A stretch of DNA of 64,000 nucleotides, from positions 1,798,001 through 1,862,000 of the forward strand of contig JAHEWK010000012.1 in assembly GCA_020740775.1 (NCBI GenBank), read 5' to 3'. The translations under genes were made by a program, and so were the position numbers. How positions within the stretch are numbered: the first letter of the stretch is position 1; each line of letters starts with the position of its first letter. The notes beneath the pieces were generated by a model, which saw nothing but the letters and a program-made list of their open reading frames with translations, was not told where the DNA came from and ran no database searches. Below are positions 37,981 to 53,379 of this stretch, in pieces. The stretch comes from Ilyonectria destructans (lineage: Eukaryota; Ascomycota; Sordariomycetes; Hypocreales; Nectriaceae).

Positions 37981-38796
37981 GTAATATCCCTCTATTATTC
38001 CAGCTTTGCAGCTGCTATTAGAGGCGACTGGTCAGTAAAAGCCTGAAATAAGCTAACTTCTATATACTAACTAAAGCTATTGATAGGGTTCCCTTGGGTT
38101 TTTATGTTAATTCTTTAGCTGTAAGTTAACTAATACTATATTATTTATTAGCTGTATAGACTATATAGTACTATATAAGCTATTAATAAATACCCTTTTT
38201 ACTGAAGAAAGTATATACCTTTAGTATTTTTAAATTAAAGCCTTAAGATAGTTTAGCTCTATAGTAACCTAAAGTTATAAAGCTATATCTTAATCTGCTA
38301 GCTTTTAAATTATATAATAGCTAAAGACTATTAGCTATACTAAATAAAGTTTATTAGATTAGTTAATTTAGATTTCTATAATATCTTTAAATTCTAACTT
38401 TTTAGCTATAATTTACAGCCTGAAAATAAAAATTAAATTACTTAAAATTAAGTAATAGAGATTAAAAGAGAAGATATAAGTATACTAATAATTAGAAAAG
38501 ACTATATTAATTTATAGTATAGAGCGGAAAGTAAATATCTTTAGTTAGTTAAGTAGTTAGTTAAGATATATATAAGAATAAAAGAATAATTAGAATATAA
38601 GAGGTAAAACTTATAGAGCTTTTATATCTATTATAATTTTACTTTTTTTAAGATTTAGCTTTTTTAGTAGATTTACTTTTTTCAGTAGATCTAGCTTTTT
38701 TAGTAGATTTAGATTTTTCAGTAAATTTAGCTTTTTTAATATATAGCTTTTTTAAAATATAGCTATTTTTACAGCTTATTAAGATATTAAAAAAGA

Positions 38797-38962
38797 TAAC
38801 TAATTAAACTAAAAACCTTAGTCTATTTAAGTAAACTATTAACCTTTAAATAGGCTGGGTATATAGTCTGTATTATTAATACTATTATTAGTGTTTTTTT
38901 TTTACTATTAAGCTTTTAGTTTTCTCTCTAGGTATATATATATTAGGGCACTCTAACCTCTT
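38797..38962. repeat. 165-bp dispersed repeat, copy B (RIPed)
   Basis: The same repeat as at 24891 and 55624. It differs mainly by C-to-T and G-to-A changes, for example CCAGTTGGACTAGAAACC becoming CTAATTAAACTAAAAACC. Confidence 0.75.
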
Positions 38963-39031
38963 AATACTCTCTTATTTAAGAGTTTATTTCTGGGTCTTTA
39001 AAGTAAAAAGTCTTATTTTACTCCCTCTTTT

Positions 39032-39206
39032 TATAATAAGGCTAGCTCTAATATAAATACTTATTAGACACTATATAATATAAATTAATAATTATAAGAA
39101 AAAGTCCCTTTTTATAGTTTAAGCTCTATTTAGGCTCTTAAGTACTACTTAATTATATAATCTAACTTATTATTAAAGTATAAGCTTAAAGCTTAAGCCT
39201 ATAATA
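39032..39206. repeat. RIPed LTR, left
   Basis: 175 bp, aligns along its whole length with 46416-46590 with only transition-type differences. Confidence 0.8.
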
Positions 39207-39708
39207 TATCCTTTTACTTTAAGCTCTTTTTATTTTTAAAAAGGAAATAATAGCTAGCTTTAAATAAGATCTCTAGTAGCTCTATTTAGATTTTCTTACT
39301 TTTTATATTCCCCTATAATATATTAGTATAGTTCTACTTTAGGCCTACTTTATAAACTAATATAATATATACCAGATTTACCTATAGGTTATAATAAGCT
39401 TATATAGAGCTATATAGCTTCTATAGTTTCTCTATAGTAATATTATTATAGCCTAGCTAATATCTATATTATTATATATATTAATTCTAATATAGATTAA
39501 AATAATAATACTTTATATCTATATTAAAACTATAATAAATCTATATAATTTTACTTTACTTTTATAAATTTACTATATTAGTATCTATAAAACTCTATTT
39601 TATATTCCCTCTATAATTAATCTTCTTTCTTCTTTATTATATATATCTTTCTTATTATATCTACCCCTCTTATTTCCTACTATATTATACTTCTACTTAT
39701 ACCTTTTA

Positions 39709-40089
39709 TGTAACGATCGGTACACTACACTATACTCGTGAGTCTAGGGTAGGCTGATCCTGATTGGTAGTTTATATAATAGGGAATCAGGCGGGTTAAG
39801 ACTTGAACAAGCGTGTCACGTCTGATAATGGTAGAGTCAAGGGTACTCAATGTAATCAAGTTGTGTTGATAGCTGAGGAGCTGCCCATTACTGAATGTGC
39901 ACTTCTCAGGTGACTATATACAAGGTGGACCGCCGTGCTTCCCGGAGGACCGCCGTCGGTCCAGGACCGCCACTGTCGGTCCTGGTGGGGCGTCGGTCCC
40001 GGTGTGGGTCTATATATGATTGGTCTATTTAAGAGTGGGTCCATCGTTCTGCCGCTGATGACCGCCCGGTCATGTCCTGGGCCGTGATA
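39709..40089. mobile_element. solo LTR nested in the RIPed element
   Basis: A 381-bp island of normal GC content. It begins TGTAACGATCGG and ends CCGTGATA (a one-step RIP change from GTGACA), flanked on both sides by TTTTA (39704-39708 and 40090-40094), a 5-bp target duplication. It contains several GGACCGCC repeats and complementary GGTCC arms that could fold. It inserted after the host element was RIPed, and then recombined to a solo LTR. Confidence 0.82.
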
Positions 40090-43000
40090 TTTTACTATAA
40101 ACTGATTATTTCTAAGAAGTAATAATTATATATTTCTTTTTATTACTAAATTGGAATTAATAACTTTATAGTAACTACTATTACTTTTAATTTACTTCTA
40201 CTTTTACCTCTATCTTTTTTTAGAGGAAAAAATATCTTTTTTAGTAGGTTTTATTATACCTCTATATATTATCTTTTTAAGTTTATTTTATTCTTTCTAT
40301 ATTAATATATATTTTACTAGAAATTCTATTATACTATTAATAGATATCTTATTAAAAAAGACTTTAAAAATAAGAAGAAATTTAATCTTTCTGCTAACTA
40401 ATAAACTATCTACTTTAACTATATTAAGTAGCTAATTAATAATAGTATCTAGTATTATATTTAAAGCTATAGCTAAAATTATATACTCTATAGCTATAAC
40501 TATAGTAAATATAACTAGAGTATATATCTATTAGCTAGTAATATCTATTTTTATTATACTTTAAATAACCTTTTTATTTTTTTTACTAATAAAATATATA
40601 TTATCTTAGCTTATATTATATATAGCAGTAGTAATATTAAGTATAAATCTATCTTTACTTTAGAGTTTTATAATATTATTTAAGCCTAAAATAATATTCT
40701 TATTTTTATTACTATATTATTTATTACTATATACTCTATTTATAAATTACTTCTTACTCTATAAAACTTCCCTCTTAATATTAACTTTTAGTTTTTTATT
40801 CTTACTAGTCTATTTTTTATTTCTACTTATAGCAGAAGTACTTTTATCTATATTTTATAATAGTAACTCTAATAATATACTAAGCAGTTTATATAGATTA
40901 TATAGTAATATAACTACTAGCTAGTAGATATTATAATATAGCTATATAACTAGAGAGTAAATTATAGCTTATTTTCCCCCTTCTATTTTTCTTCTTTTTA
41001 TTAATCTATTTTTATATAGTAATATCTAATTTAATATAATACTAATTAAGCCTGCTATAATAAATATACTAACTAAATATAGTATAAGCTACTTAAATTT
41101 CTATACTTTTAGTTCTTCTCCTACTAATATAACTAAACTTATAGCTTACTTAAATATATTTCTATAACTTAACTTTTCTATAATTATACTGCCTCTATTT
41201 ATACCCTCTAAATTAATAAGAAGAAGAATAATAAGTATAAGAAAATTCTATTTTAAAATAGATAGATTACTCTTAATATAAATAATAATAGCAATCTTAT
41301 AGATATAAATAATTTTATTATAAAATTAATCTATTATTCTACTAGTAGCTAAAAATACCTTAATAAGTAATATAAATATTACTAATTATACCCCCTTTAA
41401 TACTATAATTAAGTAGTTAGTATACTTCCTTTAGGGATATTATTAGTTAAAATTCCCCTACTCTATACTCTAATATATATTAAGCTATTTTCTATATATA
41501 TATTTCCCTACTTCTTCTTATAGTTATTTAGTACTATTATATCTTAAATACTCTTTAGTAGCTTCTATATTAAATTATTATATTCTTTTTATTTTATTAG
41601 TATTTATTATTATTTCTACCTCTATATATTCTTTATAGTAAGAACTTTTTTAATTTTATACTTTAAGTTTAAAAAGCTATTATTCTTTAATAGAATTTAA
41701 ATTAGATTTAATTTATAATTAGAAAGTTTTTAACTTAATAGTAAATTAGCAGTAATTTATTCTATTAAGTCTATATAAAATATAGAATAAATATCCTTTA
41801 GGATATTTAATATTACTATTAGTAGTATCAGTATATTCATAACTATATACTTTATTAATATCTAATTAAATTTATAGCTAAATTAATTTATCTTAATATT
41901 ATATAGATTTAGCTAGATATAGTCTTCTTTTATAAATCTCTTTACTAACTATTAAAATTTATTTACTTTCTTTATTTATTACTACTACTTAAAGATAATT
42001 ACTATCTATATTAATTTCTAGTCTTAATATAAGTAATTTAAGAATATAACTATATACCCCTTTAGTAATATTATATTAGTAGTTAGTATCTATATAAGCT
42101 AAACTGACTCTATATTATATCTATTTAAAAGCTAATTTAAGTTATTTCTAGTTACTATTAAGTTTTAGTTATTTAATACTAATTAAACTGCTAGTAAATA
42201 ATATTTCTAATTATACTAATTAAAAGTAATAACTATTTAAAGTACTATTTAGACCTTTTAATTAGCCTATTCTATACCTCTATCTATCTAAGGGTAATAT
42301 ACTATAAATAGTAACTATTTAATTCTAACTAACTTATAAAGTATTATTTAAAATCCCTTTAATTAATCTAATCTATAATTAGTAATAATTTAATTAGAAA
42401 AGCTATAGAAGTACTATTAATACTTCTTAAAGTATTCTATATATACCTTTATACTTATTAATAATATTACTTCTAGCTATATATACTTAAAGAGGCAGTT
42501 AGTAATTACTATAAGATATTAAGGCTTTTTCTTTTTATAAATAGAAAGATTTACTATAAAGTTAATAAAGATCTATAATTAGTATCTATTTACTACTAAA
42601 ATTAATTATAGAAATTCTTATTAATACTGCCTCTTCTTATAATAATCTATATAAAAGTAATTTCAGATAAAATACTTAATAAGTAATAATATATTATTTC
42701 AGTAGAATAATCTTACTAGCAGTTTATAAGTTATTTCTACCTCTAGATACTCTAATATAGCTAAGTTATAAATATATTAGATAATAGCTATTATAAGTAA
42801 TTTCTAATTAGGTAACTATAATCTGCCTTAAAATATAACTATATCTTACTTATTAAGAGTATAATTTATAATCTACTTATATATTTATACCTTAAGTAGA
42901 AATTACTAGTTACTATATTTTATAGCTATATAATAATATTAATAGGCTATATTATTAATTAATATCTAATTTTAAAGTAATTATAAATATTTATTAGAAA

Positions 43001-43913
43001 ATAGCAATCTGCCTATTAGCTCTTTTTATATTATAATTTCTATAGGCTTAAAGTAAGTTTATAAAAGTAATACCCTTACTAAATATATTATCTAATTAAA
43101 TTTCTATTTATATTCTACCTTTTTTTACTTATACCTAAAGAGAATATTAAAGTACTATACTTATATATCTAAATAGTATTAAAAATTATAGTTAAACTTT
43201 AAGAGAGTTTCTATTTAATATATCTATTATTCTAATATTTCTATTAGCTAGATAAAATACTTTAGGTTTTTATAGTCTATTAGAATAGTAAATAATATAG
43301 CTATACTTTAAAATTCTACTAATTATACCTCTAGATATATTATTACTATAAGTAACTTCTTATTATAGATTATATAGTTATATTATATTAGTATTAATTA
43401 TTAGAAATAGTAGGTAATAGAGTATAAAATACTATTCTCTCTCTATTATAAGAGATATCTACTTAAAGCTATATTTAAATAGTCTATCTTTATAGTTATA
43501 TCCTTCTTTAAATTCTATTAAGTTAAGATTAAATATAATATAAAAATAGCTTTTAGTATCTTAAATATCTTATTCTTTTCTTTACTCTAATAGAATTATA
43601 TATTAATATATATTAAGCAGATTAATAGGTATATAATCTATATAAATTCTAAAATAAAATCCCAGTAAAAATTTATAAAGCCTATAAAGCTATAAACTCT
43701 ATAAATCTATAAGAAGGCCTTTTAATTTCTTATTATCTATATCTTTTTAAAGTTTAGATATATAGAGACTCCTACTATAATAATAAACTTTAAATACTTA
43801 ACTTTCTATACTATAAACTTATATTTATTTAGATTTAAATAGAGATTAATATCTTAGAGTTTTATTAATATATTATAAACCTTCTCTATATAGTTCTTCT
43901 ATAATTCCTCTAA

Positions 43914-43952
43914 GTAAATTAGAATATTATTAAGATATACTATTATAAAGTC
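43914..43952 (-). pseudogene. reverse transcriptase active-site remnant (YLNN)
   Basis: Thirteen codons on the minus strand read DFIIVYLNNILIY, the most readable piece of the ruined pol gene. It fixes both the family and the orientation of the element. Confidence 0.75.
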
Positions 43953-46415
43953 CTCTAGTAATACTTTTAAGATTCTATTAATATATTATTAGAAGATTAC
44001 TAAAGCCCCTATTAATTTAAATAGATATACTAACTACTTAAATAATTTAAAGTAAATATAGAATATTATAAGATACTTTTTACCTTTAGTAATTTATATC
44101 TTATAGAATATAATATAAATATCTATCTTTATAAATTATTATATTTTAAATAAAAAGTATAGTATCTTTTTAATTAAAAGTAAAGAGTAGTAATTCTACT
44201 ATATAATCTTATTTAGTATATAGTAATCTATATAAAACCTTTAATTGCTCTTTAGTTTTTTTATTAAAAGAATAAAAGTTACTACTAATAATAAACTAAT
44301 ATATATTTACTCTTTATTTATTAACTTTATAATCTGTCTATAAATCTTAAGTAACTAATTATATAGTATAGAATATAATAGCCTTTATAGAAGTTTTAAT
44401 ATAAAGCTATTTAGCTCTACTTTTAGCTGGATATAGTAATTCTATATACTCTAATATAGTAAAAAAGTAGAGGCTTTTACTTTATTAAATAGAGCTATAA
44501 ATTTTTATAACTCTTTAAAAAGCTTATTAAGAGTATTTTTTTTCTCTATTTTATAGTTAATTTTATTCTTTAATATAGTATTAATTTCCTATAAGCTTAT
44601 AGCTAAAAATATATATTAGGTATCTTTACTCTATTATTACCTATAGATTATTACTATAAATAGTAAGCTAATAATAAGCCTACTCTATTTATATCTTAAT
44701 TCTATATCTACTATATATATAAATAAGTTATTTACTACTTTAATATATAATCTCTATAAAGAGATTTCTAGAGTAATTCTTCTATATTCTATTTAAAATA
44801 GGCTTAAAATAGTATTTTAATTTAAGCTTAAAATAATATAAACTATTATATAACTTCTCTAACTATTAAAGTTTAATATAGTTTAAACTATATAGAAGAT
44901 AGTTATTTTTATTATAAATAGAAATTTACTCTATTTAATTTCTACTGCTATATTTACTATCTATTTTATTAAAAGTAAAATAAACTTTAAGCTAAAATAT
45001 TATACTAAGCTTTTACTTATTATTTTATAGTAATTATAGCTACTATTAATTTAAATATCTATATAATAAATTAAATTAATAAGTATAGAAACTAAAAAGA
45101 GTAATCTATTTATTCTTTTTTTAATCTTCTATAGATTCTTAACTTCTTCTATTATTTTATTTATTTCTATTAATATTCTAATTCTAATTTACCCTTTAAT
45201 AAAATTTAACTTAAAGATAATTTATTTTCTAATTTATCTTTTAAGCCTGCCTCTATTTTCTTAATTATAGAGAATAGTATTAATTATACTGCTATATATA
45301 TAGAGTACTTACTAATAAAGTATATACTATCTCTATAGTATAGATACTATTTTATTTTATATTATACTGTAATAACTAAATAGGTAACTTACTTTATATA
45401 TAGATTCTATTCTAGCTTTAAGTTAATACTCTATAAGTCTATATTTACTCCTTTAATTCTAATTATTAATATATTCTTATTATTATTTCTTTTAATTTAT
45501 AGAGTCTATATAGATAATAACTAGTAGTAATAGAATTTTTTCTTAAGCTAGTAGAATTTAATATTAAAAGTAATACTATAGTATATAAAAATTGCTATAA
45601 GATAGTTATTATATAGAATACTTCAGTTTAAGCTAATATTTTATAGTTACTTAATAATTATACTTTATAGCTTTAATAGCTTAATATTATTGGGCTAAAA
45701 CTAGCCTTCTATCTATATAAGCTTTTACTTAAATACTATATAGAATAATATAAAAGATTCTATTATTAATTATTATATTAAATCTAGCTTAATATAGATA
45801 ATTACTTATTAATTATTATTAAAGTAAAAAGAATTAAGATACTTTAAGAAATACTCTATATTATAGTTATACTACCTTCTATTTATAAAATATATATTTA
45901 CTTTTAGTTATATCTTCTTTATATTTAGATTTACCTAAATTAGATTCTACTATATCTATATATCCCTGATAAACTTCTAGTTAATTTTTAGTATATAAGC
46001 TATTACTAAATACTATATTAAGTAAAAAGCTAAATTACTATTAAATAAAGAATTTAATTTAATTAGCTTTTAGTATAAAATTAATACTAAAAGAAAAGCT
46101 AGCTAAACTAAAGAGAATATACTCTATAGTATTAAGTCAGTTTATACTATAATTTATAGTACTTAAACTTAAAGTTTTATTTTCTATAACTAATTATATA
46201 CTTTCTATAGTATAGTATCTAACTATACCTTTTATATACTTAGTAAGTCTACCTATTAGTATAATTACTCTTATATCTATATTATTCCGTTATAAATCTA
46301 TTTAGATATTAATTTAGAAGTCTAAAAGTTTTCTATTATACTGTAGTTATCTACTATTATAGTAATATTAACTAGAGAGGCTTATAGCTACTTAAGTTAA
46401 AGAATAATTATTAAT

Positions 46416-46590
46416 TATAATAAGGCTAGCCCTAATATAAATATTTATTAGACGCTATATAATATAAATTAATAATTATAAGGAAAAGTTCCTTCTTATA
46501 GTTTAAGCTCTACTTAGGCTTTTAAATACTGCTTAATTATATAGTCTAACTTATTATTAGAGTATAAGCCTAAAGCTTAAGCCTATAATA
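46416..46590. repeat. RIPed LTR, right
   Basis: The partner of the left LTR; identical length. Confidence 0.8.
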
Positions 46591-47116
46591 CTCTTTTAAT
46601 TAAAGCTTATATATTACTCTATTATAGTATTATTATTTTCTTATTTAATATCTACTTTAGGTATCTAGATTAATAGATAGAAGAAAGTGCAGTTATCTAT
46701 AAATAGTAAGGTTTAAATACTTAGTTAAATACCTTGTAGAGTAAATAAGGCAGGGAAAATCAGATTAGCATATACCTTCTATAAAATCCTCCTCCCGGCA
46801 ATTACAGTAGCTGATACAGTAATAACATTAATAACTTCTTTTTCTCAGTATTTTTACCTTATCGGAATAATAATCTAATTAGTTAGTATACACACCGCCA
46901 ACTAATCAGCCTTTTAATAAGAGAGGTCTTAAGTTTATAAAGATTAACAATGTCTGTAATAGTAAACTAATTGTAGTTATATCTTCTGCGGCTTACTCTT
47001 CTCAACCTCGCAACGCCTCAGAAAAAAAGCCCAAATACGACTTGAGCCCAGACCTCACAGCAAGCAACAGAAAGAACATTCTCCAAGAACCCAACACCTC
47101 AAACCCCCCGAGTTAA
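46591..47116. other. transition from AT-rich block to genic DNA
   Basis: Composition returns to normal at about 46.95 kb, only some 150 bp beyond the stop codon of the TPR-CHAT gene. No gene seen. Confidence 0.6.
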
Positions 47117-50100
47117 TCACACCCCAAAATGGACATACCCAGCCCACCTCAACGGTTGCAACGGCCACTTCTCCCTTCCATCCATCACCGCCTCCCTCAA
47201 CACAGCCGCCACGACCCCATCATCGACTTCCCCCCCGGCACGTGGCCATGCCTCCGCCAACCGCTTATAAAACTCGCCCGCAACCTTCACCGATGCCTCC
47301 TCCTCCGCTGGCCACATCGTCGCCACCACATGCGGAAACCCAGCCACCTGAAACCCCGACGCAAGGTGAAGCACCTCATCCACCAGCCTTTCCGCCCTGC
47401 TCTCGGCTGTCGAGCACGCTGAGAGGTATGCTATCTTTGCCCTACTAGTGCTCCCATCAGTGGGAATGCTGGTAGTGTGGTGGGCGAGATGGCGGACTGT
47501 GAGCAGATCTGCTACTGCAACCGGGGAGGGGTTTTGTTCGGAAGGGGGGGGTTGGTGTTGGAGGATGAGGTGGCTTTCGGAGGGGTTGGAGGGGTCAGAG
47601 ACGCCGTGGCAGGCGAAGTGGGCTATCTCGCAGTGGGGGAGGTTGGCAAGAATGGTTTGGGTGCTGGGGTGTTGGAGGGGGAGGACGGTGTGGGAGGGGG
47701 CGAAGGCGGTGGTGATGCTGGTGAGTTCGGTGGTGGTGGTGCGGAGTGGGGGGTTGCGTTTGTTGTTGGTGGGAGGGGTGGTGGGCATGAGGGCGACGAG
47801 GAGGGAGGGTTTGGTGGTGGTGATGGTGGTGGTGGTGGTTGAGGCGAGGTTGCGGAGGAACGAGGCACGTTGTTGGGCGTAGGCGAGGGCGCGGGTGGTC
47901 GGAGTGTAGGAGCTGATGATGTAGGTGTAGGCGTTGGCGACGGAGGACGGGCGGTGGTCGCCTGCCGCGTGGAAGGGGAGGAACACGCCGAGTCCGGCGC
48001 CTATCCACCAGACCCGGGTTGGTTTGATGGGCGTGGGTTTGTCCAGGAGATGGAGATGGCGCAGGATCGGTTCCACGCAGGCCGTCCACAGCCAGGCCAA
48101 GTACTCGCGGCATATTGCGTTCTTGTCGCCGAATTCGCTCCGTTTCTTGAACCGCGTTGGCTTCTTGTCCAGCCAAGCTTGGACTTCCCGCTTCCGCAGC
48201 TCTGGGAGGTGGACGGACTTGATGCTTGATGCAGTCACCAGGATGGCATCGCTTCTCTTGTCGGCGACGTTGACCACGACGATGGGGCCGCGAGCAGCAA
48301 GGGACTTGACCTCTTCCGCGGTGGGACCCTTCAGGAAGTTTTCGTGGCCGGTCAGTTGGCGGATTTCCGATATCAGTCCATCCAGCTCTCTGACTTGGTT
48401 GTCTCGCTGGCGAACCATGGCTTGCCGCAATGCCACGTCCACTCCCGTGTCGACCGGCCGGCTGATTGCGTCCCGGAGTCTTTCAAAACGGGCTGCGAGT
48501 TCCAGGTGAGTTGCCGCAAGGCCCGAGACGTCGCTTCTGTCCTCGATCAAGAGCCCCAGGATGAGGCCCCGACCCAGCTCGAGGAGCTCCAGGGCTTGGT
48601 CCGGCCTCTCGCCCGCCTGGATGGACAAGGCGCAAGTCTCGACGGCAATGTCGGAGAAGTCCGCTGTCAGACGTTGCTGGTCATCCCGGCCCAACAGGCG
48701 GGTGTTGGTTCTGCGGAGGATGTCTAGCACCTGCTCGCCTATCTCGATTGCCCGGGCGTATTCACCGCGGTCCCGGAAGATGGCCATCAGCTGCACGGCG
48801 GCCACCATGCGGCTCGTGGGGTCGCCGAGCGCGTCGTCCAGGGATTCCAGGTACATGGGAATCGACTTATCCTCCCAGGGCGGGTTCCAACGGACGCCGT
48901 CAATCCGAGCTTCGAACATGCCGCCAAAGCCGAACGTATGGGCAAGCATGTACAGGCGAGCAAGACTGAACATGATGTGGGACCGATGGACATGGTTCTT
49001 GGGCACCGATGCCGCGGCATCCTGTACAAAGGAGAGTGCGTTCTGGAGGTCATCCTTGTTACGGGTCCGCTCTGCTCGCTCTCGCAACAGCCAGGCCATG
49101 TTGCTCGCATAACCCGGCCAGTTTGGGCGGTTCCGTGGTAGCCGTTCTATTGCTTCTGTCTGGTGGTCGATTGCCGTGTTCAGGCTGTCCAGGTTCTCTC
49201 TGTTCCGCCAGTAGCGAGAGCGGTATGCAGAGGCGAGGCTGTTGAGCCAGAGAGCGGGCACGTCACCAGGAGGTTGCATCGTTTCGACGGCTTCGCAGAG
49301 CAATGAGAAGCCCTCATCAAACGTGGCATCTTGTTTGTCGATGTTGTAAAGTTTCAAAAGTTTGACGCCAATGTTGTGCTTGATGCCGTTTGTCAACAAG
49401 TTGGCACGGCGCGAGGGAGTTGGCAAAGCAGACCTGGAGACTCGAATGGCGTCCCGTAGGTCGTCAACTCTGTTCAGCCGATCGAAGCGGTCCTCGAGTC
49501 GGCACCCCAGATTGGTCAAGTGCTGGCTCTTTTTGGGCGAGTCGGGTACGGCGACTGCATCGAACGAGAGGCTGACAGCGGCATCCAAGTCCTCGATGCT
49601 GTTGTTCCGTTTTGCTCGGTTCTGCAGCGCGTTGGCCTGCGTTTCCAGCAGAGCAGCCCGGGACGCACCATCGCCGTCTGGGACCACAACAAGTCCCCGC
49701 CGGCAGATCTCTATGGACTCGGTGAGGAGGTCCACATCTTGGTTTTGGTCGTAAACATTTTGGAGGTAATGGCCCAGCTTTCCACGCCAAAAGAACAGTC
49801 TCGGCGTGTCGTCGGGGGCGCGCTCCAAGGCCCTCCGCAGGAGCTGGCAGCCTTGCTCCAGGTCATCGTCGAGTCGATGTTCCTCAAAGTAACCCAGGAA
49901 CAGGTCGGCCACGGAGAAAAGAATTTGCGTCCTTCTGCGGTCTCTTTTATGCGGATCTTCAGGCTGGGCGTCTTCTGGCTGCCGGCTTTGGGAAGGACGA
50001 ACTTGGTAAATACTGACCATCAAGGCCATGGCCTCGGTTGCGTAAGGGTCGTCGTCAGGGAGGAAGTCTAAAGCTCGGTCTATGGTCAACAGGGCGTCGG

Positions 50101-50482
50101 CCAGATCCATCCGGTTGGATGTTTGCTCGAGGTGCTCACAGAGCAGCTTGTGGTATGTCCTCAGAATGTCTGTCCGACGAGGGTGGCTCCTCAGAGGAGG
50201 TATCAGGTTGGCAGACACGCGAGCCACTTGGATGGCAGTCTGCAAAGTTCCAAGCTCCCGCGTCTCCAAATATTGGTTGTATTGACGGACTGCATGGTCA
50301 TGCAAGGTGTCGATTAATATTTGGTCGCGGCTGAGTTGTGAAGCCACGGTAGCGTCACGTAACGAGAGGGCCTGCATGTCTTGGTAGTTGGAGCGATTGA
50401 GGTATGCCAACAGTTGACCGACTCCGCGTAACATGGAGGTCAGCAATCTCCAAAGCGTTTGAGCGATATACGTGGCAGCCAT
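47117..50482 (-). CDS. TPR-CHAT protease (caspase-like), probable gasdermin activator
   Basis: A single exon of 1121 residues from the ATG at 50482 (upstream codons in frame lack an ATG). The N-terminal ~28 residues form an amphipathic hydrophobic helix (YIAQTLWRLLTSMLRGVGQL), possibly membrane-binding. Most of the protein is a TPR-like helical solenoid (repeated patterns such as LEQTSNRMDLADALLTIDRAL, SIEDLDAAVSLSFDAV, NLDSLNTAIDHQTEAIERLP). The C-terminal third is a CHAT domain (TRVWWIGAGLGVFLPFHAAG onward) with the catalytic pair in HFACHG (about H959) and YLSACSTA (about C1023). A low-complexity Thr-rich loop sits at about residues 905-915. CHAT is a clan CD cysteine protease fold. No NACHT or NB-ARC domain is present. 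It is head-to-head with the gasdermin-like gene, so proteolytic activation of that protein is the obvious hypothesis. Confidence 0.88.
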   Translation of the reverse strand: MAATYIAQTLWRLLTSMLRGVGQLLAYLNRSNYQDMQALSLRDATVASQLSRDQILIDTLHDHAVRQYNQYLETRELGTLQTAIQVARVSANLIPPLRSHPRRTDILRTYHKLLCEHLEQTSNRMDLADALLTIDRALDFLPDDDPYATEAMALMVSIYQVRPSQSRQPEDAQPEDPHKRDRRRTQILFSVADLFLGYFEEHRLDDDLEQGCQLLRRALERAPDDTPRLFFWRGKLGHYLQNVYDQNQDVDLLTESIEICRRGLVVVPDGDGASRAALLETQANALQNRAKRNNSIEDLDAAVSLSFDAVAVPDSPKKSQHLTNLGCRLEDRFDRLNRVDDLRDAIRVSRSALPTPSRRANLLTNGIKHNIGVKLLKLYNIDKQDATFDEGFSLLCEAVETMQPPGDVPALWLNSLASAYRSRYWRNRENLDSLNTAIDHQTEAIERLPRNRPNWPGYASNMAWLLRERAERTRNKDDLQNALSFVQDAAASVPKNHVHRSHIMFSLARLYMLAHTFGFGGMFEARIDGVRWNPPWEDKSIPMYLESLDDALGDPTSRMVAAVQLMAIFRDRGEYARAIEIGEQVLDILRRTNTRLLGRDDQQRLTADFSDIAVETCALSIQAGERPDQALELLELGRGLILGLLIEDRSDVSGLAATHLELAARFERLRDAISRPVDTGVDVALRQAMVRQRDNQVRELDGLISEIRQLTGHENFLKGPTAEEVKSLAARGPIVVVNVADKRSDAILVTASSIKSVHLPELRKREVQAWLDKKPTRFKKRSEFGDKNAICREYLAWLWTACVEPILRHLHLLDKPTPIKPTRVWWIGAGLGVFLPFHAAGDHRPSSVANAYTYIISSYTPTTRALAYAQQRASFLRNLASTTTTTITTTKPSLLVALMPTTPPTNNKRNPPLRTTTTELTSITTAFAPSHTVLPLQHPSTQTILANLPHCEIAHFACHGVSDPSNPSESHLILQHQPPPSEQNPSPVAVADLLTVRHLAHHTTSIPTDGSTSRAKIAYLSACSTAESRAERLVDEVLHLASGFQVAGFPHVVATMWPAEEEASVKVAGEFYKRLAEAWPRAGGEVDDGVVAAVLREAVMDGREKWPLQPLRWAGYVHFGV

Positions 50483-51014
50483 GACTATCCGTGTTTGGGG
50501 GGCAGACTGACGGAAAGCCACAGAAGAAATAGGAATATTGATGGAATCCCCAGCGAAGCTAGTCGCCCCGAGAATCGGTGGCCCGTCGGTGGGTGTTGCG
50601 GTTGCCTATATCGACTTCTGCCTATCCTGGCAGACCTTAGGAACCAATCATATGGCGATGTGCAGGGCAGGATCTGCCTTGCGCTCTGAGCCGGCACATC
50701 AGGGGTTAATCCGTTGAAGGATTAAGGTTGTGGAAGCCAGAGTGACGAATCAAATGACGCCGCTATGGTCACTCGGGATGTCATCTGACGTTGAAGTGAC
50801 CTCACAGCCTCCGAACAAAACCGGACGGTTCTCGTATCTTCTCCTCCGTTTAGGCACACAGCCAAGGAAACATTGCCTCAAGGCTGCTGGCGGAAACCCT
50901 TCCACTGGTCCGCCCGTCCGGGCAAGGTGCATAAAAGGGTCTGGACTCATTAAGCCCTCCGATAAGCTCTTCTTCAGGCACAGCTCATCGAAAGTTACCC
51001 CTCCAAGAAACAAG
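50483..51014. promoter_or_regulatory. shared promoter of TPR-CHAT and gasdermin-like genes
   Basis: 532 bp separate the two start codons. A TATA-like CATAAAAGG lies at 50930-50938, about 77 bp before the gasdermin-like start. The compact divergent layout implies co-expression or co-inheritance. Confidence 0.6.
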
Positions 51015-51815
51015 ATGCCACAGGATATCCTCCTTCCCCAGTGTCTCTTGCCCATCACGTCGATACGCCTGGGCCGTTTCATAGTGCGCGTCGATGACCC
51101 CCATTTGTCGCCCTTTCATGATCCAAAAATCGAAGTCAAGCCGGACAGCGGCATATCCGAATCGACGTTTCTAAACTACGATGGAGACCAACACGCCAGC
51201 TCCGGCAACAAGTTCGCGGCCGGTCTTCCAAGCCTTCTCAACGGGTCAGTCACAAGGAAGACTGGGAGGTCGTGCGCGGTCAGTGCCGACAGCGTCACAA
51301 TCCGCCAACTCACAAACCCAGTTGCCCAATTCAAAGAAGCGGTGAAAGATGATGCGGCGCGTAAGTGGTTTGAAGAGCGGAAGGACGAGGGTTGTGGCGA
51401 CTTCTATTTCGTCGTCGGTTACTACGTCATGGTCAACGCCGTTATCGAGATAAGCGAAGAGAAAAGCAGTGGTACCTCGGGACAGCTCAACGTCCCAGTT
51501 TCTGCGGCGCTTGCTGCTGGCGGCATTCTGCTTCCCGACGGGGGCATTACGGACCCCAAGTTTGAGGCGGGATACGAGAAATCTCAAGGAGGCACTGTCC
51601 GATTCAAAGCCCCCGGTGATCGTATTTCCGCGCTGCAATACCGCAAGGTCTCGTTCAAGTGGTTGTCCAGCAAGAACCTCGACAAAGCCACCCTGGGCAA
51701 AAATAGCGTGTGGGAGAGTCTGCTCAGGGTCAAGGGCGAGGCGGAGGAGGAGGAGGAGGACATGGCCCAAGTGGAGCTGGAGGAGGACGAAGAAGAGGGA
51801 GACAAGGCTGTCTGA
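51015..51815 (+). CDS. fungal gasdermin-like pore-forming cell-death protein
   Basis: An intronless 266-residue protein; the ATG at 51015 has a good AACAAGATG context. I assign it to the fungal gasdermin group (RCD-1 of Neurospora, HET-Q1 of Podospora) on length, segment order and neighbourhood, without a database search. Visible features: a mixed N-terminal domain; an alternating hydrophobic/aromatic segment at about 129-146 (DFYFVVGYYVMVNAVIEI) and a small-residue stretch at about 159-178, candidates for the membrane-inserting hairpins; a basic/aromatic stretch ISALQYRKVSFKW (about 204-216); and an acidic tail from about 251 (EEEEED, EEDEEE). Known fungal relatives are released by cutting off a short C-terminal piece; the tail could be that inhibitory piece. 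The junction near SLLRVKGE is a natural place for cleavage (inference). The gene is divergent from the TPR-CHAT protease. Confidence 0.68.
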   Translation: MPQDILLPQCLLPITSIRLGRFIVRVDDPHLSPFHDPKIEVKPDSGISESTFLNYDGDQHASSGNKFAAGLPSLLNGSVTRKTGRSCAVSADSVTIRQLTNPVAQFKEAVKDDAARKWFEERKDEGCGDFYFVVGYYVMVNAVIEISEEKSSGTSGQLNVPVSAALAAGGILLPDGGITDPKFEAGYEKSQGGTVRFKAPGDRISALQYRKVSFKWLSSKNLDKATLGKNSVWESLLRVKGEAEEEEEDMAQVELEEDEEEGDKAV

Positions 51816-53379
51816 TGGCGCGCTACGTGTCAATCTGCCCATTGGCGAGCGCATGGCGAATGGCGTGTACTGGCCACCCGCGTGGAAGATATCCGAACCT
51901 CTTGTGCTTACCCTTGTCCCTTTTTCTGTCTGTCTCTTCAGCTTATCTGTGGCCTGTTGAATTTCAGTCTCTGATTGGTTAATTTATTCATACTATGATG
52001 TTATTTACAGGTGGGAGGAGCCTTCATTATATGCTCCGCACCAGACCCCTAGATCGGGACCTAAAAAGACTCCAGGGACTTTGTTGGTGGGAGAGGTCTT
52101 TAGTGCAGACCACACCCGTCCGCAGGGTAGGAGCCGGAGAGGGATAAAAGATAAAGGAAAGTAATAATACTGCAGTCTCCTGGGGGTAAGATGTACAGAA
52201 AGCAGTCAATCCACCGCTTTCTGATATCTCTAAAGAAAGGAAAGAGGAAAATATCGATAAGAGCTGCTGCGACAGGTAGAGTGTGAGGAGCGTCGAGAGA
52301 CGGGAGGTGTTATATTAGTTCAAGGGGAAAAGCGTGCTGTTTTAATTTTCAACCAGACTTAACGCCTTAAGTAGGGACCGCCTAAGCTAGCTACTGGCCT
52401 CCCCTGCTATATTAAACTCCAGGTGGACCGTTGGCCCCATCACAGGATCCAAATTGATATTTGTTCCCAGGTCAGGAAAAAGCGTGATCGCCACCTGCCG
52501 CTGCTGCTCTCCTTTGACTCTCACCATTTATGGACTACTTCAAGCTCCTGCGGGAATGGGACTCGCAGATTGCTGCCAGAGCACGAGCAAAATCCAGCGT
52601 GCGTCCCCCTCTAGGACCGACTTTCCTTATAAAGAGATAAAATCAGTATATAATATTAAAGTTTTATTTCTCTTTCTATATAAATTCAGTTAGAAAGCTA
52701 AATATTAAAGCTAGTTAAACTTTAATTTATATATTAATTAATTATTATTCTGTTATTATTTACTTACTTTAATATAATTTACTAATATAAAACCAATTTG
52801 AATCAGCTTACCCTAAACTCCTGAGTATAATCTCGCGTACTGTCATTACAGATTGTTAGTACTCGAGTCTGAGCCAGCTTTGTATAGAAGGGGATTAGTG
52901 CAATAGAGGATAATAGCTCTCTCTTGGGACGATAGAACCCAAGGAAAGACAAGCTCAAGCCACCGGAAGCTTCCGAGTGGCTTGGTGGCAATTACTACTA
53001 AGCCTAAAATCGCTCCTGGTGGTGTCGCCATGATTCAGCTACCGACAGCTTCTGTCTCACCCCGCAGCCACATCAGACGCGGGGATATATAGAGGCTTGA
53101 ATAGTGCTTACTACCGGCCAGGTTAGGCGTGCCGGAGACCTTCGCGGAGTCCGGAATGGCTGAGATGGATGTTACGCTTGTTGCAGTGCAAGCTCTGAGA
53201 GCGGCCCTGAAGATGCCGGGTCCCCCCTGTTTATTCTGTAGCGTGTTTACTGTTTAGTAATGGTCGGCAACAACTCATCGTCAAAGTCGTCCCTCTTGGA
53301 ACCAAGGTCTGCAGAATCCCGACGAAAGATCTAGCATCCATGGACCACAGACCTCGCATCGACACATGCATTCGTCGCT
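51816..53379. other. intergenic region with AT-rich patch
   Basis: 1.56 kb without a supportable gene. 52,630-52,800 is AT-rich and looks like a short RIPed fragment; a TATA-like GATATATAG occurs at 53084-53092, some 290 bp before the CFEM gene. The 52,020-52,400 part is GC-rich and may be a transposon remnant, but no termini are visible. Confidence 0.45.

Follow-up and report, generated by a model that had tools for sequence, protein, structure and literature searches.

A pair of divergent genes in the soil fungus Ilyonectria destructans very probably makes up a CHAT-type cell-death unit of two genes, in which a gasdermin held by its own tail would be freed by the cut of a TPR-CHAT protease. 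The pair lies in the window (the whole 64,000-nucleotide stretch of DNA that was analysed), on a 2.41-Mb contig (C4) of a 71.7-Mb genome. This reading builds on a predicted gasdermin fold, intact His and Cys residues in the protease, recurrent pairing of the two genes, their matched divergence and a conserved motif in the gasdermin tail. Pairing of a gasdermin with a TPR-CHAT protease as such is already known in fungi, and the window supplies a further example; the probable transfer of the pair between fungal orders is the one point that we did not find in print within the literature examined.

Gene layout and domain structure

The gene for the protease, the probable sensor and activator, occupies 47117..50482 on the reverse strand as an uninterrupted frame of 1121 aa from an ATG (a longer version with a GTG start extends to 50521), and that for the gasdermin-like pore-forming protein occupies 51015..51815 on the forward strand as an uninterrupted frame of 266 aa. 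The 532 bp between the two starts (50483..51014) would serve as a shared promoter region. The initial annotation had described two divergent frames of these lengths and at this distance, and our reading recovered them at the same coordinates. The deposited I. destructans protease model (P0016) has 1128 aa, and its 3′ end differs from the window frame (window 47117-47140). Our frame ends in RWAGYVHFGV, as do P0017, P0018, P0020 and P0021 and, nearly so, P0024, P0025 and P0033; since these printed homologues share its C-terminus, we consider the single-exon reading the better one and the 3′ end of P0016 probably spurious.

The assignment of the 1121-aa protein to the CHAT proteases held up well, with a caspase-like CHAT domain at residues 793-1120 (47123..48106, reverse strand) scoring far over the curated Pfam cut-off (PF12770, E 2.7e-30, 106.3 bits versus 24). 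Both of the motifs that had been pointed out, HFACHG and LSACSTA, are present. The two histidines of HFACH (H955 and H959; 47606..47620, reverse strand) and the cysteine of LSACSTA (C1023; 47414..47416, reverse strand), which we take to be the catalytic residues of the CHAT family, are invariant in an alignment of 35 sequences (35/35), made up of the window protein and 34 homologues picked from the 120 matches listed of 1111. N-terminal to the CHAT domain is a putative degenerate helical region of TPR type, at about residues 40-660 with estimated boundaries (48503..50365, reverse strand). Every match of a Pfam TPR model to the window protease itself falls under the cut-off, and TPR_10 is found at E <= 0.001 in 25 of the 35 aligned sequences.

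A Pfam scan of the protease found neither NACHT nor NB-ARC at E <= 1, in line with the earlier proposal of a minimal two-gene unit that has no such switch. The unit exists as proposed, but its novelty does not stand, as TPR-CHAT proteases acting on gasdermins are already in the literature. Fungal CHAT-NLRs likewise place a CHAT domain beside a gasdermin, and differ from the window protease in that the latter has no NACHT or NB-ARC match. Csx29 of Type III-E CRISPR systems has the TPR and CHAT architecture that the window protease probably has too, though the match is weak (E 0.0021) and, at 17 bits, far under the family cut-off of 300. Csx29 is regulated by a CRISPR effector; no sign of such control was seen at the window pair.

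By prediction, the 266-aa product has the gasdermin N-terminal pore-forming fold. The first 24 Foldseek rows and the first 23 VIA entries obtained with its model (pLDDT 62) were all gasdermins; the closest solved fold by Z was RCD-1 of Neurospora crassa (8JYY and 8JYZ, Z 9.2), and the bacterial gasdermin 7N50 matched with E 2.1e-5. A gasdermin identity first suggested by pattern recognition was thus recovered when the predicted structure was compared with RCD-1 and the bacterial gasdermins. Sequence similarity is marginal: a single-sequence search of the PDB with the 266-aa protein matched no characterised fGSDM, rcd-1-2 ranked top in a profile search at an E of 0.1, and the PADLOC and NCBIfam profiles gave no gasdermin match. 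The bacterial gasdermins (7N50, 7N52, 7N51) have neighbouring protease genes and short tails according to excerpts of two papers (PMC10197012, PMC12881547); they are prokaryotic, unlike the window pair, and no PADLOC model fits either window protein.

Pairing with CHAT proteases

According to the portions of three papers available to us, about 80% of gasdermin genes in fungi have a protease gene clustered with them, usually one of the S8 type, and these proteases frequently carry fused TPR, ANK or WD40 repeats (PMC10197012, PMC12881547, PMC10989679). CHAT proteases make up 17-19% of the clustered proteases in two of these excerpts (PMC10197012, PMC10989679), the third giving that share for cysteine proteases including CHAT (PMC12881547). 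The window gasdermin shares the family's clustering with proteases, lying 532 bp from a CHAT gene. The nearest precedent, a two-gene cluster of Podospora anserina in which a TPR-bearing CHAT protease activates the gasdermin (Clave et al. 2022 PNAS, via the text seen of PMC12881547), belongs to a different fungus and is likened to the window pair by its description there, as a gasdermin and a TPR-CHAT protease encoded by two genes.

Gasdermin and CHAT genes are paired again in other genomes and elsewhere in that of I. destructans. The window gasdermin itself not counted, the searches gave 14 close relatives (P0003-P0015 and P0136); 15 more distant proteins (P0138-P0152) were left out of the count, and P0137 is the paralogue on contig C8. 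Judging by contigs of identical length, ten of the 14 share a contig with a listed CHAT relative (P0006/P0020, P0007/P0021, P0008/P0024, P0009/P0025, P0010/P0033, P0011/P0023, P0012/P0027, P0013/P0032, P0014/P0031 and P0136/P0030), with consecutive gene numbers in all four pairs where both names carry such numbers. Three others lie on contigs of at most 2.5 kb, too short to show a neighbour, and for P0004 (Thermothelomyces hinnuleus, 147 kb) a CHAT partner is absent among the matches listed. Viewed from the protease side, the homologues closest to the window protein are P0017-P0034, among the 120 matches listed of 1111; with the window protein included these are 19, and for eight of them a gasdermin partner is absent among the matches listed, some of which a word-limited search may explain.

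A gasdermin search of the same genome gave ten matches at E <= 10, seven of them at E < 0.01, and six of these seven have a CHAT match no more than about 3 kb away (the window, C13, C29, C5, C8 and C41). The pairs in the window and on C13, C29 and C8 are head to head and that on C5 is tail to tail. Beyond the window the genome has four gasdermin-CHAT pairs that are open and a fifth that is doubtful. The doubtful locus (C41:178000-187500) combines a remote gasdermin match (E 0.0036) with a same-strand NACHT protein whose CHAT match is broken by three stops, reflecting either decay or an intron; it is possibly a CHAT-NLR/gasdermin pair. Near the seventh gasdermin, on C74, the matches listed include no CHAT and no S8 protein, and a subtilisin partner was discarded for it, with no S8 match close by among the 50 listed. 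A gasdermin-like match on C7 (E 2.79) was too weak and was left uncounted; it lies near an NB-ARC frame and a frame with a sub-threshold alpha/beta-hydrolase match (C7:341000-350500). We found no second genomic copy of the window module, just a 136-base stretch at 74-75% identity in two paralogues.

The C13 and C29 gasdermins look nearly identical in alignment, and the two pairs probably arose by recent duplication. Adjoining the C13 pair is a 551-aa protein that, we presume, resembles a transposase of the Tc1/pogo type.

That the two window genes are unrelated neighbours, the CHAT protease having another substrate, is scarcely credible. CHAT genes are common here, with at least 50 CHAT-like matches in the genome (48 over the cut-off), but about 50 matches in 71.7 Mb amount to a chance expectation of about 0.4% per 3-kb neighbourhood (the CHAT number being a lower bound), against six of seven gasdermins in this genome; the recurrence of the pairing, here and in other species, already contradicts coincidence. 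Divergence of the gasdermins also mirrors that of their CHAT partners (r 0.86, 11 pairs, Mantel p 0.0001), which likewise argues against coincidence, a match that co-inheritance alone would also produce.

The gasdermin tail

Downstream of its predicted fold, the window gasdermin ends in an acidic tail (residues 237-266, net charge -12; 51723..51812, forward strand), a putative autoinhibitory peptide. Net tail charge is -8 to -16 in all 15 gasdermins of the close clade (window included) and -3 to -12 in the remaining 16 aligned proteins; the four paralogues measured in the same genome have -22 (C13 and C29), -7 (C5) and -3 (C8). With these last two values, we dropped strong acidity as a hallmark of all CHAT-partnered gasdermins; it is a feature of the window's gasdermin clade. 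The motif DMAQVEL within the tail (residues 249-255; 51759..51779, forward strand) is conserved, residues 250-255 forming a strand in the model, at low confidence; all 31 aligned proteins fit the pattern [D/N]-[M/V/A/T]-x-[E/Q/A]-[A/V]-x-[V/L/F/I], which was written after the alignment was inspected. This common strand-like motif offers a candidate site of autoinhibition in these gasdermins that can be put to the test.

The tail may be an inhibitory peptide, with the protease cutting just upstream of the motif. HET-Q1 of P. anserina, at 278 aa, is similar in length and also has a short C-terminal tail, which a protease removes; excerpts of two papers describe a fragment of about 5 kDa that is lost from its C-terminus, with a probable cut at F238 (PMC12881547, PMC10989679).

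Origin of the pair

Phylogenetic and compositional data suggest that the window pair has an origin outside the Hypocreales. Trees of both proteins were built from named organisms only, the families of Thermothelomyces and Chaetomium being taken from a congener. In the CHAT tree Ilyonectria stands beside Thermothelomyces (97/96), inside a clade of six rows (100/100) that otherwise consists of Chaetomiaceae. A single clade of the four Hypocreales rows was rejected (p-AU 3e-100, log-likelihood 818 lower), as were a Chaetomiaceae clade without Ilyonectria (p 1.3e-73) and the joining of Ilyonectria singly to Purpureocillium, Trichoderma or Fusarium (p 3.4e-93, 3.7e-65 and 1.2e-10); a version of the tree that included four metagenome rows also rejected the first two of these groupings. 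The gasdermin tree rejected the three Hypocreales rows together (p 5e-77). The window protease is 87% identical to that of Thermothelomyces versus 56-59% to those of other Hypocreales, including Fusarium of the same family (Nectriaceae), whose copy of the pair is 51% and 59% identical. GC3 of the two window genes (0.72 and 0.67) exceeds that of eight neighbouring ORFs (0.52-0.64). By comparison, the gasdermin of the C8 paralogue follows a vertical pattern, with 83% identity to a protein of Dactylonectria (Nectriaceae).

Taken together, we think it probable that gasdermin and CHAT protease form a self-contained two-gene immune cassette that crosses fungal orders, and that Ilyonectria (Hypocreales) acquired its copy whole from a Chaetomiaceae-like donor (Sordariales), the cassette settling between repeats. 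Vertical inheritance, with the Chaetomiaceae affinity produced by ancient paralogues, gene loss and poor sampling, is unlikely given the rejected groupings, the identity values and the GC3 of the pair. It draws on two features of the trees. A Chaetomiaceae clade without the Ilyonectria row was not rejected for the gasdermin (p 0.19), so that this tree allows a position inside or beside that family, and the CHAT tree is off the species tree even without Ilyonectria: in a control, a clade of the other three Hypocreales rows was rejected as well (p 3.4e-11, log-likelihood 73 lower), and P0025 (Penicillium) groups with P0026 (Trichoderma arundinaceum; 100/99). Since the family departs from the species tree repeatedly, hidden paralogy stays a rival, and the control rejection slightly lowers the odds of transfer.

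An environmental protein, P0017 (longest contig 3.1 Mb), is 86% identical over the CHAT half and groups beside the window protein; it may mark the donor lineage or a near relative.

The pair is flanked on the left by an AT-rich, RIP-like repeat block (38004..46598) that has RIP-type dinucleotide bias and copies on other contigs; stretches of it correspond to repeats on C5 and C7 (about 88-92%), and one unit, some 900 bases long, is present in many additional copies. On the right is a dispersed repeat of about 370 bp (52074..52450), for which 35 of 42 matches are further copies or fragments (71-92% identity). Flanks of this kind speak against contamination. Transfer within a Starship element was considered and set aside: the DUF3435 captain (PF11917) has ten matches in the genome at E <= 0.001, none of them on contig C4. 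Ten other ORFs of the window were scanned (a sulfatase, a sugar transporter, a fungal rhodopsin-like protein, NmrA, SDR, a zinc-binding dehydrogenase, a transcription factor, a hydrolase, RNase H and one without a match), and no further immune gene was among them.

None of the passages on horizontal transfer that were read in reviews dealt with a gasdermin gene, and papers joining gasdermin with Ilyonectria had, judged by title, nothing on fungal genetics.

Mechanism and biological role

From these features we infer autoinhibition, sensing and its trigger, cleavage and the cut site, pore formation and death at the window locus, along the following lines. The 266-aa gasdermin would be kept inactive by its own C-terminal tail until a cue binds or rearranges the TPR region of the divergent TPR-CHAT protein. 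The CHAT cysteine protease would then switch on and cut its partner within the linker that precedes the conserved strand of the tail (around residues 225-248), taking off about 20-40 residues; the freed gasdermin would oligomerise into plasma-membrane pores and kill the cell.

It is very unlikely that the TPR-CHAT protein instead controls the gasdermin without cutting it, as a scaffold or inhibitor, with the gasdermin firing by another route. RCD-1 is thought to fire in such a way, without proteolysis. RCD-1-1 and RCD-1-2 are antagonistic variants that act as each other's trigger (PMC10197012, PMC12881547, in excerpt) and are activated by co-expression, by a mechanism called unknown in the available text of a 2023 review (PMC10197012); unlike the window gasdermin, RCD-1 has no protease partner in the descriptions available. 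An inactive scaffold would not need the His and Cys residues that are invariant in the CHAT alignment, and the Podospora TPR-CHAT protease is reported to activate its gasdermin (PMC12881547, in excerpt).

The role of the pair is likely to be conspecific non-self recognition or antiviral/xenogeneic defence. A lesser but real possibility is that it forms a heterokaryon-incompatibility locus of the idiomorph type, at which different strains would have different forms and death would follow only on hyphal fusion and not from cis-acting sensing of a foreign cue. The rcd-1 and het-Q gasdermin systems act in allorecognition, according to the sections seen of two papers (PMC10197012, PMC12881547), and in Aspergillus fumigatus the incompatibility locus hetB, which has idiomorphs, is a CHAT gene. 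Against this, both window genes occur together in the one Ilyonectria genome examined, unlike HET-Q1 and HET-Q2, which are described in excerpt as idiomorphs that are not carried together (HET-Q2 being a subtilisin-like S8 protease, unlike the window's CHAT), and the pair is retained across genera.

The window adds another clear and easily cloned gasdermin/TPR-CHAT pair; as it has no NLR switch, it is well suited to studying what a TPR region senses. Should the cross-order transfer prove right, fungal pyroptosis-like modules spread among distant fungi in linked pairs, and their patchy distribution would be easier to explain.
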